Below, piece after piece: positions 45,016 through 51,382 of a DNA stretch of 64,000 bases. The notes under the pieces are model-generated. The model did no database searches. It worked only from the letters and a program-made list of their open reading frames with translations, and was not told the origin of the DNA. Source of the stretch: Bacteroides fragilis (GTDB lineage: Bacteria; Bacteroidota; Bacteroidia; Bacteroidales; DTGW01); NCBI GenBank assembly GCA_945889005.1, contig CAMDBI010000013.1:1-64000 (forward strand). Direction: 5' to 3'. How positions within the stretch are numbered: position 1 is the first letter of the stretch; each line of letters begins with the position of its first letter. The position numbers and the translations under genes were made by a program.

Positions 45016-47202
45016 ATGAATCGTTTTGCCTTTATAATAATAAGTATAATTATTTTATTTTCGACTATTTTATTTGCACAAACCGATTTTCAAAAAACGG
45101 CAAATGAAATAGAGTTTTTATTAATTAAAGCAAAGCAAGACAACAATAAACCTGAAATTGCTAAATATCAGGTAAAAATTGGATATCTATATTGGGAGAA
45201 CGATCAAAAACAGCAAGCGCTAGATTTTTTTCAACAGGCAATAAAAACAAATGAAGATATTGGTAATCAAAATGCAATAAAAACATTGTGTACCAACATT
45301 GGAATGATTTATTCCGATCTCAACGATTTTGAACAAGCGCTCATGTATTTTAAGAAATCTTTAAGAATCAACCATAAGTCAAATCGCAGAATCGACATAG
45401 CATCCGATCAGTTCAATATTTCTAATACATTGCAAGCAATGAAGAAATACGACGAGTCGAATAAAGCACTTGAAGAAGCATTAACCATTTTTCAAGAAAA
45501 CGGAGATGTGAAATCTGTAAAGAATTGCTATACAGTTTTTTATGAAAACTACGAAAAACTTGGTAATAATCAGAAAGCAAAGGAATACTTCGAGTTGTCG
45601 GCATCTATTGGCAAGCAACTACAGAAAGAGGAGCTTAAGCAATTCGAGTCACGAACCAAGCAGGTAGAAGCCTCGTTGGAACAAAAGGAAAAGCTTATTC
45701 AAAGTACAAAAGATACTATTTTGAAAATGAGTAGCGAAATGCGTTTACAAATTGAGTTGCGCGACAAAGAACGAGAACTTTCGCTGTACCGCGAAAAAGC
45801 ACAAAAAGACGAACTCAACAAACTAGCCGAACGTGCTCAAAGCCGCAATAGGCTTATTGTTTCAATGGGTGCGGTTTTGCTTTTAGTTGTTGGTTTTTTT
45901 ATATTTATAGTTTGGCAATTGCGAGAGCGCAAAAAGGCATATAAGTTGCTCGAATTGAGTAATAAACAAATTGTTGAGCAAAAAGAAGAAATTGAAAAGC
46001 AACGCGATATAGCTGAAACCCAAAAACGAAAGGTTACTGATAGTATAAATTATGCAAAGCGAATTCAAAGTGCTGTAATGCCTCCGCTTAGCCTATTCGA
46101 GAAATATTTTCCCGAGCATTTTATATTGTTCAATCCTCGCGATATTGTAAGTGGCGATTTTTATTGGATTACACAGAAAGATGGTGTAATTATTGTTGCC
46201 GTTGCCGATTGTACAGGACATGGTGTTCCTGGAGCATTTATGAGTATGTTGGGAGTGGCCTATCTCAACGAAATTGTCAATAAAATAGCTGTAAACCGGC
46301 ATATTCGTACACTTCACGCCAACGAAATATTAAACCAGCTTCGCGACAATGTAATTGCATCGTTGCATCAAACCGGAAAGAGCAACGAATCGAAAGATGG
46401 GATGGATATTTCGTTGTGTATAGTCGATTTAGAACAAAAGCACCTTCAATATGCCGGAGCGCATAACCCCTTATATATTATCAGGAACAACGAACTCATT
46501 CACATAGAGGCCGACCGAATGCCAATTGGTTATTACAGAGACATAACAACGCCCTTTATAAATCACGAAATTACCATTGAGAATGGAGACATGGTGTATA
46601 TGTTTACCGATGGGTATTACGATCAGTTAGGAGGACCGAAAAATCAAAAATATTTTTCGGCAAATTTCAGAAAATTATTGCTCGAAATTCATCAACTACC
46701 TTTGCCTGTTCAAAGGGAAAAGCTTCAGCAGAGTAGCTACGAGTGGCGAGGAAGCATGGAACAAATCGACGACCAATTGGTTATTGGTTTCAAAATAAAA
46801 CCCACAAAAATATCGACAGCCATTACTGACGAATATTCGTGGCCCGACAAACGTGTGCTTATTGCAGAAGATATGGATCTCAATTATTTTTTGTTGTCGG
46901 AAGCTTTAAAACCAACAAAGGTTCAAGTTTTTAGGGTGATGAATGGAGCCGATGCAGTCGATTTTTGCAAAGCTCATGAAATAGATCTTGTTTTGATGGA
47001 TATTCGTATGCCTGTAATGGATGGTATAGAGGCCACTCAAAACATTAGGCAATTTAATCGGAATTTACCTATTGTTGCACAGACTGCACAAAGTGATCCC
47101 GAAGACAAGGAAAAAATATTTGCCGTAGGTTGCAACGATTATATAGCAAAACCGGTAAACCTTAAAACATTTTTAATGATTTTGAAAAAATATTTATCAT
47201 AA
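45016..47202 (+). CDS. TPR - membrane - PP2C (SpoIIE/SiaA-like) phosphatase - response-regulator receiver protein
   Basis: 728 aa. Signal peptide (1-21), TPR repeats (~25-205; the periplasmic sensor part), a membrane helix (~278-300), a coiled coil (~305-345), a PP2C/SpoIIE phosphatase (~355-590) with DIVSGDFYWITQ, VADCTGHGVPGAFMSMLG and EADRMPIGY metal-binding marks, and a C-terminal receiver domain (~612-728) with Asp662 in LVLMDIRMPVMDG and the conserved Lys in DYIAKPV. It should dephosphorylate a Ser/Thr on a partner, most simply the SiaC-like protein whose gene starts 5 bases later, under two-component control. Confidence 0.93.
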   Translation: MNRFAFIIISIIILFSTILFAQTDFQKTANEIEFLLIKAKQDNNKPEIAKYQVKIGYLYWENDQKQQALDFFQQAIKTNEDIGNQNAIKTLCTNIGMIYSDLNDFEQALMYFKKSLRINHKSNRRIDIASDQFNISNTLQAMKKYDESNKALEEALTIFQENGDVKSVKNCYTVFYENYEKLGNNQKAKEYFELSASIGKQLQKEELKQFESRTKQVEASLEQKEKLIQSTKDTILKMSSEMRLQIELRDKERELSLYREKAQKDELNKLAERAQSRNRLIVSMGAVLLLVVGFFIFIVWQLRERKKAYKLLELSNKQIVEQKEEIEKQRDIAETQKRKVTDSINYAKRIQSAVMPPLSLFEKYFPEHFILFNPRDIVSGDFYWITQKDGVIIVAVADCTGHGVPGAFMSMLGVAYLNEIVNKIAVNRHIRTLHANEILNQLRDNVIASLHQTGKSNESKDGMDISLCIVDLEQKHLQYAGAHNPLYIIRNNELIHIEADRMPIGYYRDITTPFINHEITIENGDMVYMFTDGYYDQLGGPKNQKYFSANFRKLLLEIHQLPLPVQREKLQQSSYEWRGSMEQIDDQLVIGFKIKPTKISTAITDEYSWPDKRVLIAEDMDLNYFLLSEALKPTKVQVFRVMNGADAVDFCKAHEIDLVLMDIRMPVMDGIEATQNIRQFNRNLPIVAQTAQSDPEDKEKIFAVGCNDYIAKPVNLKTFLMILKKYLS

Positions 47203-47206
47203 CAAC

Positions 47207-47581
47207 ATGGAAGCATTAAAAATTTCGCCAACACAATCGACACCTAGTGTTAGGTTTTCGACCGATGGGTTTTTCGAAATATCAGGGAATTCGTTGCCCG
47301 AAGATGTACATTTATTTTATGGCTCAATTTTTGAGTGGATCGAAAAGTTTTCGTTATCGCCCACACAAAAAGTATCTATGACTTTTAAAATGTCATATTT
47401 CAATTCGGCATCTTCAAAAATAATATTGGAACTTATGAATCGACTCGAAGAGTTATTTAAAAAAGGTATTGATGTTGAAATTCATTGGTTGTATCTCGAA
47501 ATCGACGAAGATATGCTCGAGTCGGGGCGCGAATACGCCGAAATGATATCTATTCCTTTTTCTTTCGAAAAATATGTTTAA
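47207..47581 (+). CDS. siaC: SiaC-family regulatory phosphoprotein (DUF1987)
   Basis: 124 aa. LKISPTQSTPSVRFSTDGFF and KVSMTFKMSYFNSASSKIIL are the family signatures. In Pseudomonas SiaC a Thr in the N-[ST]-x-S loop is phosphorylated by SiaB and freed by the PP2C phosphatase SiaA; here the loop reads N66-S67-A68-S69, so Ser would be the acceptor. No kinase gene lies nearby. It is 5 bases behind the phosphatase gene, so both should be made together. Confidence 0.9.
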   Translation: MEALKISPTQSTPSVRFSTDGFFEISGNSLPEDVHLFYGSIFEWIEKFSLSPTQKVSMTFKMSYFNSASSKIILELMNRLEELFKKGIDVEIHWLYLEIDEDMLESGREYAEMISIPFSFEKYV

Positions 47582-47604: not shown

Positions 47605-49380
47605 ATGAAAATACAATCTGTAAAAATTACTTTGTTTGTATTTGTAATGGCTATGTTGCAAATTCAAATTATTGCGCAAGCTCCTCTGAAACATGAAAAG
47701 AAAACATACCGCTCGCCCGAGGGGAAATTATATGTTCAAAAGGAATTGCCAATATATTTACGCATAGCTACTTCGCCAGCCGAAAATGCTCCTACTTATC
47801 TTCTCAAAAGTGAAGTAACCAGCAAATATTCGAACCCGATGTATCTCGATGCCGAAGGGTATAATACCTTTCGTGCGCCCTCATGTGTCGATACAGTTAC
47901 TCTCAAAACTGTGCTTCCAGAGCAGGATATTGTTTTCGAAGTGTATGCCGATAGTCATTCGCCGTTAACCAATGCAAAATTTGCTAATGCAAAAACAAAG
48001 CTTCACAAAGGGAAGAACTATACCCGAGGAAGTGCAGAAATTGTTATGGAAGCCAGCGACGCTTTATCGGGTGTAAGTGCGATATATTATTCGGTCGATT
48101 CGGTCGATTTTAAAGAATATGCCGGCCAATTGTTGCTCGAAAAAGAAAAAGAGTACAATTTGCAATACTACGCGGTAGACAATGTCGGAAATGCAGAAAA
48201 AGTAAAAAGTTTTATTGTTGTTGTCGATAAATCGACTCCCAAAACAAAGCTATCATTATCAGGGAGTGTCAAGGACAATGTATTGGCTGCCAATGTAAAG
48301 ATTTTGTTAAATGCTGAGGACAATGGAATAGGGCTGTCAAAAATTATGTATAAAATTGATGAAGGACCCGAACATATTTTTTTAAAATCGATTGATGCAG
48401 CTCGTATCGAACAGGGCGAACATAAATTGACATTTTGGTCTGTTGATCAGGTCGAAAATAAAGAAGAAGATCAGGTTTTTGATTTTTATGTCGACAAAAC
48501 ACCCCCTGCTATTGTTCAGGAAATTATCGGGAAAAGCTTTGTTGCCAACGGGCGTGAGTTTTCGTCGGGACGGTCGCAGTTAAAAATAACTACTTTTGAC
48601 AACAAATCTGGCGTTAAAGAAGTATTCTATTCGATCAATAATGGTGAATATAAACTCTACGAGAAACCCATTTATTTAGCCAACTCTCAGGGTAATCTGG
48701 CAATTAAAAGCTACGCGGTTGATTTTGTTGGCAATAGAAGTGTTTACGACGAAAGCGAGTCTGGCAAAAGTTCATATTCGTATGTCGATCTTACTGGTCC
48801 TTCGCTCAATGGAAGTTTCGATGGACCTCTATTTGTATACAACGATACTGTTTTTGTCAACAATCAAACTAAAATTAAACTTAAAGCCGACGATGCCGAA
48901 TCGGGTTTAAACAGAATTGAATATAGTGTCAATCAGGGCGATATTGCTGTTTACGACAAACCTGTAATTATTGAAACCGAAGGTTTTGTAAATCTCAAAT
49001 ACATAGGTTACGACAATGTCGACAATACCAACAACAACAATATGGTATTTTTTGTCGACAAGACCGGCCCCGAAGTTTTTTATCGTTTTAGTTCACCAGT
49101 TAAAAATATATCAAAGTCTGAAGAACAAACCGTTGAACTTTACCCCAATCATGTAGTGTTGTTTGTTTCGGCTACCGATCTTTTTACAGGTTTTTCGAAA
49201 ATGACTTATTCAATCAATGGTTCGGTCGAAAAGGCATTTAGCGGTATCATATCAGATTTTCCGGCAAGCGAAAAAAACACAATTGTAATAAAAGCTTACG
49301 ATAAGCTAGGAAATGTTACTCAGAAAGATGTTGTTTTTGGTATCGACAAATCAATCAATAAAAACATTGCATCGAAATAA
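47605..49380 (+). CDS. Secreted multi-repeat Ig-like (OmpL47-type) protein
   Basis: 591 aa with a signal peptide (cut near IIAQA). A ~115-residue head is followed by about four or five repeats of ~100 residues, each with a phrase of the type ASDALSGVSAIYYSVD, then a Y-D or V-D-N-x-G-N element, and VDKTPP or VDKTGP at the border. This matches OmpL47/FIVAR-like beta-sandwich repeats in surface adhesins. No T9SS sorting domain is seen, so it is periplasmic or outer-membrane bound. It follows siaC by 23 bases and converges on the PorE-like gene. Confidence 0.8.
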   Translation: MKIQSVKITLFVFVMAMLQIQIIAQAPLKHEKKTYRSPEGKLYVQKELPIYLRIATSPAENAPTYLLKSEVTSKYSNPMYLDAEGYNTFRAPSCVDTVTLKTVLPEQDIVFEVYADSHSPLTNAKFANAKTKLHKGKNYTRGSAEIVMEASDALSGVSAIYYSVDSVDFKEYAGQLLLEKEKEYNLQYYAVDNVGNAEKVKSFIVVVDKSTPKTKLSLSGSVKDNVLAANVKILLNAEDNGIGLSKIMYKIDEGPEHIFLKSIDAARIEQGEHKLTFWSVDQVENKEEDQVFDFYVDKTPPAIVQEIIGKSFVANGREFSSGRSQLKITTFDNKSGVKEVFYSINNGEYKLYEKPIYLANSQGNLAIKSYAVDFVGNRSVYDESESGKSSYSYVDLTGPSLNGSFDGPLFVYNDTVFVNNQTKIKLKADDAESGLNRIEYSVNQGDIAVYDKPVIIETEGFVNLKYIGYDNVDNTNNNNMVFFVDKTGPEVFYRFSSPVKNISKSEEQTVELYPNHVVLFVSATDLFTGFSKMTYSINGSVEKAFSGIISDFPASEKNTIVIKAYDKLGNVTQKDVVFGIDKSINKNIASK

Positions 49381-49387
49381 CACTCGA

Positions 49388-51382
49388 TTATTTCTGAGGA
49401 ATATAGTCGGTTCTTAATACACGAAATTCTGTACGACGGTTTATTTGGTTTGCAAATTCTTGTTCGTCTAAAGTTAAAGTATTAATAAAGTTTTCGTCCA
49501 AAATGGTTCCCAATTTCAAGAATGTAAAATCTTTTACAATTTTCTCGTCCACTTCTTTGGGTTTCGATTTGCCATAGCCCTTTGCTGTTAAGCGGTCTGT
49601 AGCTATTCCTTTTTCAATTAAAAAATTTACAACACTTTGGGCTCGTTTTTGCGAAAGTTCTACGTTTGCTTGTTCGCTACCTCGTGAATCTGTGTGCGAC
49701 ATCAACTCGATAGTAATATTGGGGTTGTCGTTGAGTGTTTCGACCAATTTGTCGAGAGCCACCATCGATTCGGGGCGCAAATCCCATTTGCCGAAATCGT
49801 AGAAAATATTTGGCAATTCAATAGGTTTGGCAATAGAAGCCAAGCTAATAGTAACTTTAAATTCTTTGCTTTTGTCAACCCCTTTGGTCGATTCGCGTTG
49901 TTTGCCATTCAAAAAACCTTCGTGCGAACCTATGAAAACATAATCGGTACCCGGTTTCAATGTAAATTTGAAACTTCCATCGCCTATGGTTTTAAATTCG
50001 GCAGTGCTACCATCGCTACTAATAAGTCTAACAGTCGACGACTCGAGCGGTTTCGATGTTTTTTCGTCAACAACAACACCCGAAGCCGTAAAACGCAATG
50101 GAGGAAGAGTAAATGAGTAAATATCGGCATCGGTTCGGTTGTTACGAACCGAACTAAAGAATCCCTTTTCATTTTCGGCTTGAAAAACAATACCAAAATC
50201 GTCGCCCGCACTGTTCATGGGGTAACGAAGGTTTTCAATTTTCATTTGACCGGCTGCATCTTTCACTACTTTAAAAATATCTAAGCCTCCAAGTCCAATA
50301 TGACTATTTGACGAAAAATACAAAGTTCCATCGGGGTGTACATAAGGGTAAAGCTCTTTTCCAGCGGTATTTACAGGAGCCCCAACATTTTCGGGTGCGC
50401 CCCAGTCTTCACTAGCCGAAGCTCTCGACACTTTCCAAATGTCCATATCGCCCATGCCTCCGGGCAAATCTGATGCGAAATATAGCGTTAATTCATCGGG
50501 CGAAATAGCCGGGTGGGCAATGGTTACACTGTCCTCAGCAATTTCGAGTGCTTTGGGAGTTGCCCAACCTTGTCCTTGAAATTGTGTTGTATATATTTTA
50601 CAACCATTGGGTTTGTTTTTTACTTTTTTGCAGGAGGTAAAATACATAGTTGAAAAATTGTTGTTGAAGCATGTAGCGCCTTCTTCGTCGATAGAGTTTA
50701 TTTCAATGTTTTCGATCGAAACCGGATCGCTCCATTTGTCTTTGCGGTCGAGACGCGAAAAGAATATATCGGGAGGGTTTTGTCCCGTAATATCGCTTTC
50801 TTTGGGTGTAAGGTTGCCCTTGCGTGTTGAGGTAAAGTACAATTCGCCATAATCGGCACGCGAAAACGACGGACAAAAATCTTCGGCACGCGAGTTAAAA
50901 AATTTCATATTTTCGACCTGATAGCCATTTGGGCTTTTTGTCCATTTCTGTGCCAATTTGCACGATTCAACACCGTTTTCGCCTCTGATATCGCCAGGTA
51001 CTAATTCTTTGTATTTTTTGTAATACTCTTCGGCTTCTTTGTATTCTTCGGTCATTTTCAGGGCATCTGCCAAATACAAAAAAACTATTGGATCTTTATA
51101 TTCCTTTTCAATAGCTTTTTTGAGCCACAACTGGGTTTTCTTGGCATCGCTTATACGTCTGTAGCAATCGCCAATCATAAAAAGTATTTCACCCTTTTTC
51201 TCTTTATACTTTTCTTCGTAAGTAGTATAGTCGTAAATACTTTTCAATTCTTCGATAGCACTAAGCCATTCGCCGGCGGTGTAGGTTGCATAAGCACGTT
51301 GAAAATCTTTTTCTGGCGAACCTATTACTTTGCTGAAAATCAATACAAAAAGTAGTGTGGCAAAAAATCTGGCTGGTTTCAT
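49388..51382 (-). CDS. PorE-like OmpA-family protein (TPR, beta-propeller, carboxypeptidase-regulatory, OmpA)
   Basis: 664 aa. Signal peptide (1-21), TPRs (~25-145), a PD40/WD40-like propeller (~160-430), a carboxypeptidase regulatory-like beta domain (~433-515) and a C-terminal OmpA peptidoglycan-binding domain (~530-664) with IELMSHTDSRGSEQANVELS and RTEFRVL. That domain order matches PorE, which tethers the T9SS to the cell wall; several similar paralogues exist in one genome, so the T9SS link is inferred. The OmpA domain has an extra insert of ~30 residues before the final strand. Confidence 0.85.
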   Translation of the reverse strand: MKPARFFATLLFVLIFSKVIGSPEKDFQRAYATYTAGEWLSAIEELKSIYDYTTYEEKYKEKKGEILFMIGDCYRRISDAKKTQLWLKKAIEKEYKDPIVFLYLADALKMTEEYKEAEEYYKKYKELVPGDIRGENGVESCKLAQKWTKSPNGYQVENMKFFNSRAEDFCPSFSRADYGELYFTSTRKGNLTPKESDITGQNPPDIFFSRLDRKDKWSDPVSIENIEINSIDEEGATCFNNNFSTMYFTSCKKVKNKPNGCKIYTTQFQGQGWATPKALEIAEDSVTIAHPAISPDELTLYFASDLPGGMGDMDIWKVSRASASEDWGAPENVGAPVNTAGKELYPYVHPDGTLYFSSNSHIGLGGLDIFKVVKDAAGQMKIENLRYPMNSAGDDFGIVFQAENEKGFFSSVRNNRTDADIYSFTLPPLRFTASGVVVDEKTSKPLESSTVRLISSDGSTAEFKTIGDGSFKFTLKPGTDYVFIGSHEGFLNGKQRESTKGVDKSKEFKVTISLASIAKPIELPNIFYDFGKWDLRPESMVALDKLVETLNDNPNITIELMSHTDSRGSEQANVELSQKRAQSVVNFLIEKGIATDRLTAKGYGKSKPKEVDEKIVKDFTFLKLGTILDENFINTLTLDEQEFANQINRRTEFRVLRTDYIPQK

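Follow-up and report, generated by a model that had tools for sequence, protein, structure and literature searches.

A conserved phosphatase/SiaC/OmpL47-type gene unit as the probable input arm of a c-di-GMP-independent partner switch in Bacteroidales

Three consecutive genes in the window, i.e., the whole stretch of 64,000 nucleotides analyzed here, form a conserved unit encoding a SiaA-like membrane phosphatase, a SiaC-family phosphoprotein and an exported OmpL47-type protein (Table 1). This unit probably constitutes the input arm of a SiaA/SiaB/SiaC-type partner switch that would sense the cell envelope, rely on a SiaB kinase acting in trans and control an output independent of c-di-GMP. 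The third gene, which was overlooked in the preliminary description of this DNA, is a member of the unit in its own right.

Table 1. Features of the three-gene unit (positions in the window; ranges within the phosphatase are residue numbers)
Feature	Position	Strand	Description	Basis
SiaA-like membrane protein phosphatase	45016..47202	+	728 aa	Pfam, PDB and NCBIfam matches; AlphaFold2
Phosphatase, N-terminal parts			signal peptide; periplasmic TPRs ~45-200; coiled coil/TM ~280-302, with hydrophobic segment; then cytoplasmic coiled coil
Phosphatase, C-terminal half			PP2C/SpoIIE 389-593; receiver 612-727 (Pfam 614-720), D662
SiaC-family phosphoprotein	47207..47581	+	124 aa; predicted acceptor Ser67 in N66-S67-A68-S69	PF09345
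Exported OmpL47-type protein	47605..49380	+	signal peptide and string of Ig-like beta-sandwich domains	NF047446; AlphaFold2; operon linkage

A SiaA-like phosphatase with an intact receiver domain

The architecture read earlier from the sequence (TPRs, a membrane helix, PP2C and a C-terminal receiver) was borne out by Pfam and by an AlphaFold2 model with the same domain layout (mean pLDDT 84.8). When the PP2C domain was compared with the whole PDB, its top match was the PP2C domain of Pseudomonas aeruginosa SiaA (6k4e, E 1.3e-35). The NCBIfam SiaA model NF038263 aligned with the PP2C part only (E 1.9e-56), and its 191.9 bits fall below the equivalog cut-off of 700; judged by these matches, the protein is best classed as a SiaA-like PP2C and not as a SiaA orthologue.

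All six of the PP2C Asp positions checked are invariant across 26 homologues. The receiver retains its acidic pair (E618/D619), the phospho-Asp D662, which had already been described as intact, T690 and K712, and the residues E/D618, D619, D662, T690 and K712 are present in all 14 of the receiver-bearing homologues. As the remaining 12 of the 26 homologous phosphatases have no receiver, this optional domain may be peripheral to the phosphatase unit. Comparison of the gene neighbourhoods of homologous loci revealed no histidine kinase recurring beside the unit, and a cognate kinase adjoining it was therefore rejected.

The SiaC protein and its predicted acceptor residue

The second ORF begins 4 bp after the phosphatase ORF and encodes, as had been proposed, a SiaC homologue. 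It matches PF09345 with 117.4 bits (E 3.6e-34; cut-off 24.5 bits) and can be aligned along its length with the P. aeruginosa SiaC structures 6kko and 7e6g, and its score of 81 against the NCBIfam SiaC equivalog model is below the cut-off of 150. In P. aeruginosa, SiaC is phosphorylated at Thr68, within LLYLNTSSIK (PMC7647112). The N-S-A-S loop without Thr recorded in the preliminary description is real: in the aligned loop YFNSASSK, the phosphorylatable residue Ser67 occupies the position of Thr68. Thus, the acceptor of the window SiaC appears not to have been lost, a hydroxyl residue being retained.

The lack of Thr, which had been regarded as odd, proved to be commonplace. Among the 86 SiaCs of six whole genomes, the acceptor position is occupied by Ser or Thr in 81 and by Ser in 33. 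In addition, a paralogous SiaC located directly behind its own SiaB gene on contig C7 has an identical NSASSK loop, indicating that a SiaC with this loop can have a SiaB partner. We also considered the Ser acceptor as a sign of kinase-less SiaCs and rejected it: Ser was found in 11/11 unit SiaCs and Thr in 24/28 SiaCs beside SiaB in a biased sample only, and in the whole-genome sets Ser is present in 8/25 SiaCs near SiaB vs 25/61 others. The unit SiaCs group together in a SiaC tree, but the tree was built from a small number of columns and its deep forks are loosely supported, and a single clade is not established.

An exported OmpL47-type protein and the conservation of the unit

The third gene encodes 591 aa and starts 23 bp downstream of the SiaC gene. 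Five stretches of its product match the NCBIfam OmpL47 domain model NF047446 with a score of 211.3 bits (cut-off 40 bits), while the OmpL47 equivalog model gives 221, under its cut-off of 250. AlphaFold2 (pLDDT 89.6) predicted a chain of beta-sandwich domains and no barrel, and among solved folds those nearest to this model come from fragments of GhpA, the grappling hook protein of Aureispira. The product thus resembles the Leptospira OmpL47-type proteins in lying far above the domain cut-off, but differs from OmpL47 proteins in its predicted string of Ig-like domains without a barrel, its tie to a signalling phosphatase and its score below the equivalog cut-off.

The order PP2C(-Rec)/SiaC/OmpL47 was found in G000, G001, G003, G004 and G045, with a version lacking the receiver in G046, and the flanking genes differ among these genomes; the trio is also present on further named Bacteroidota contigs and across families. 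A scan of GTDB genomes yielded 80 loci, mostly from Bacteroidales/Bacteroidota MAGs with a few from Chlorobiota. Among 148 genomes of the order, the OmpL47 family occurs in 31, of which 30 are SiaC-positive (Fisher p 3e-12, kinship ignored). With close homologues defined by at least 38% identity (n=41 distinct), 31/41 share an operon with PP2C and/or SiaC and 10/41 are unlinked to either; distant homologues (<38% identity) were rejected as unit members, 42/48 being unlinked. Promoter and terminator scans performed no better than shuffles. The convergent gene at 49388-51382 on the minus strand encodes a PorE-family type IX secretion protein (NF052230, 701 bits; cut-off 600), and it was rejected as a unit member, since the flanking genes differ in relatives.

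Nine of the close OmpL47 homologues stand with a PP2C gene but no adjacent SiaC, and at several loci the OmpL47 gene precedes the phosphatase gene. These arrangements suggest that the bond of OmpL47 is mainly with the phosphatase and favour a sensing role. They also weigh against the alternative that OmpL47 is the output of the switch, which would govern its expression, export or surface assembly: the third gene does stand where siaD stands in siaABCD, and its product resembles surface proteins, but a sensor partner fits the observed linkages better, and a cytoplasmic SiaC would be unable to contact OmpL47. We therefore regard an OmpL47 output as unlikely. That OmpL47 and SiaC lie on opposite sides of the membrane is nevertheless a point against the input-arm reading as well, and so are the 10/41 unlinked close homologues, the nine standing with PP2C alone, the optional nature of the receiver, the lack of a recurrent histidine kinase neighbour and the draft state of the assembly.

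It is highly improbable that the unit is a drifting vestige in which SiaC is no longer phosphorylated. Although the kinase is not adjacent and Ser replaces Thr, the catalytic, receiver and acceptor residues are kept in homologues at 30-55% identity, and the gene order is maintained in distant families.

SiaB kinases encoded elsewhere in the genome

Neither a SiaB nor a GGDEF gene was found near the phosphatase/SiaC pair, in agreement with the preliminary description, which placed the kinase elsewhere. Cotranscription of a SiaB gene with the pair would have contradicted that placement; no such gene was found in the five relatives examined first or, subsequently, at any of the 41 homologous loci (0/41). 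Profile searches of the source genome (3.26 Mb, a draft of 62 contigs, 99.4% complete) detected 11 SiaC genes, 20 PP2C and 6 SiaB domains. The latter belong to five SiaB genes, one a tandem double, all located in other parts of the genome, and four of these genes stand directly ahead of a SiaC. The N-box and G-box motifs of GHKL type can be read in several of the five. On contig C4, the GG of the glycine-rich motif is missing from the second domain of the tandem double SiaB (L015:2634-3737) and likewise from a single SiaB (L015:8839-9357), and these two may be inactive kinases.

The preliminary description had treated the lack of an adjacent SiaB as odd, but the six whole genomes suggest otherwise. 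SiaB lies in the same short gene run for 25/86 SiaCs and the other 61/86 are orphans, in neighbour classes that rest on home-made profiles and miss some PP2C variants (a GAF-PP2C lies beside the C37 SiaC, which is classed as alone), and with one of the SiaCs scored as SiaB-linked standing three genes away from SiaB. Across the 148 genomes of the order, SiaC was found in 65, and SiaB was present in all 65 of these vs 1/83 genomes without SiaC (Fisher p 8e-42, kinship ignored). SiaC genes outnumber SiaB domains in 45/65 genomes, with totals of 623 vs 435. Because the two families co-occur, few SiaCs are SiaB-linked and SiaC outnumbers SiaB, orphan SiaCs served by SiaB kinases in trans are likely to be the norm in this order.

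For the window SiaC, the first candidate kinase would be the SiaB of contig C11, because the SiaC of that operon, which has its own PP2C and SiaB, is its closest paralogue (46.8% identity). For most SiaCs of the homologous units (11/15), the C11 type is likewise the nearest. A natural SiaB-SiaB-SiaC fusion of 499 aa was observed at L130:17332-18831, and SiaB frames of ~500-535 aa in other genomes may represent further such fusions.

The excess of SiaC over SiaB, the many SiaCs without an adjoining SiaB and the lack of any cytoplasmic effector gene inside the unit at the compared loci are also what would be expected if the window SiaC had no target of its own. In that case, the phosphatase would hold SiaC in its unphosphorylated form, in which it would compete for a SiaB kinase used in common and thereby shift the phosphorylation of SiaB-linked SiaCs, as RsbV does with RsbW. 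Such a sink is possible but doubtful, given that the SiaC of Pseudomonas binds its own target directly (PMC8457831), and sequence features appear equally compatible with titration and with a direct target.

Relationship to known systems

No GGDEF or PilZ domain was found in the source genome by searches that detect both in control genomes. The cyclase SiaD of Pseudomonas is activated by SiaC in its unphosphorylated form (PMC8457831). In a genome devoid of GGDEF and PilZ genes, this mechanism cannot apply as such, which supports the earlier suggestion of a different output. Within the order, GGDEF is present in 6/148 genomes and in only 2/65 of those with SiaC. The other 63/65 SiaC/SiaB genomes often have 10-20 SiaCs each, and therefore the usual role of the family in this order must differ from cyclase activation. 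In the searchable literature, the experimental role of SiaC is that of a diguanylate cyclase activator, in Pseudomonas only, and the openly accessible papers searched contained no work on what the SiaC family does in Bacteroidota. The "SiaC" of a Bacteroidota LolA/LolB study looks unrelated.

Similar to SiaABCD of P. aeruginosa (PMC7647112, PMC8457831), the unit combines a membrane-bound SiaA-type PP2C with a SiaC whose phosphorylatable residue is at the equal position in an N-[T/S] loop, and SiaB-family kinases are encoded in the genome. In contrast to SiaABCD, its operon contains no SiaB, SiaD and all other GGDEF proteins are absent, and it adds a TPR sensor, a receiver domain, a predicted Ser acceptor and the exported OmpL47-type gene, in a genome with a network of 11 SiaCs. 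Because SiaB is missing from the operon and SiaD from the genome, and both SiaA and SiaC score below the NCBIfam equivalog cut-offs, the unit is no SiaABCD system, even though, by analogy, it would operate as a SiaA/SiaC pair does.

RsbU/RsbV/RsbW partner switching couples a PP2C phosphatase, a small phosphoprotein and a GHKL-type kinase. The unit shares this phosphatase/phosphoprotein/kinase logic; however, SiaC and SiaB are families distinct from the STAS protein RsbV and from RsbW, and no sigma-factor partner is linked to the unit.

Proposed mechanism and candidate outputs

Whereas the genes, their conservation and the presence or absence of partners are observed, the biochemical steps given below are all modelled on SiaA/SiaB/SiaC of Pseudomonas. 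An envelope or surface condition would be sensed by the exported OmpL47/Ig-like protein together with the periplasmic TPRs, and the C-terminal receiver would be phosphorylated by some histidine kinase, the two inputs jointly setting the activity of the cytoplasmic PP2C. The PP2C would then strip the phosphate from Ser67 of the neighbouring SiaC, as SiaA does with SiaC in Pseudomonas, and a SiaB kinase from another part of the genome would rephosphorylate it in trans. Unphosphorylated SiaC would act on a non-cyclase target or titrate SiaB. With the trio, the question becomes testable: the input module is defined, an acceptor residue is predicted and the kinases that could act in trans are few.

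For the order as a whole, we tentatively suggest that the SiaB/SiaC switch might have been rewired off c-di-GMP, with many OmpL47/TPR-PP2C(-Rec) sensors each setting their own SiaC, few SiaBs serving all of them in trans, and an output in envelope export, e.g., through TerB-ABC-ABC2. SiaB-SiaC pairs of this order adjoin a protein of ~1,030 aa consisting of TerB, an ABC ATPase and an ABC-2 permease, which is a candidate for a c-di-GMP-free SiaC output; it is a neighbour in 22/39 SiaB-SiaC pairs of a partly selected sample. An FHA domain reading pThr in this exporter was rejected, as Pfam gave no hit to one at a threshold as loose as E 5. The gene orders seen are PP2C > SiaB > SiaC > TerB-ABC2 > lipoprotein and, alternatively, a convergent arrangement with a paralogue of ~45% identity; the loci comprise L017:2596-9392 (contig C11 of the source genome), L098-L105 and L112, and L106-L111. 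Finally, an orphan SiaC on contig C3 of the source genome (L020:4001-6151) has two genes of CheW-like type and an isolated receiver-like gene, as named from their sequences, at a distance of a few hundred bases.
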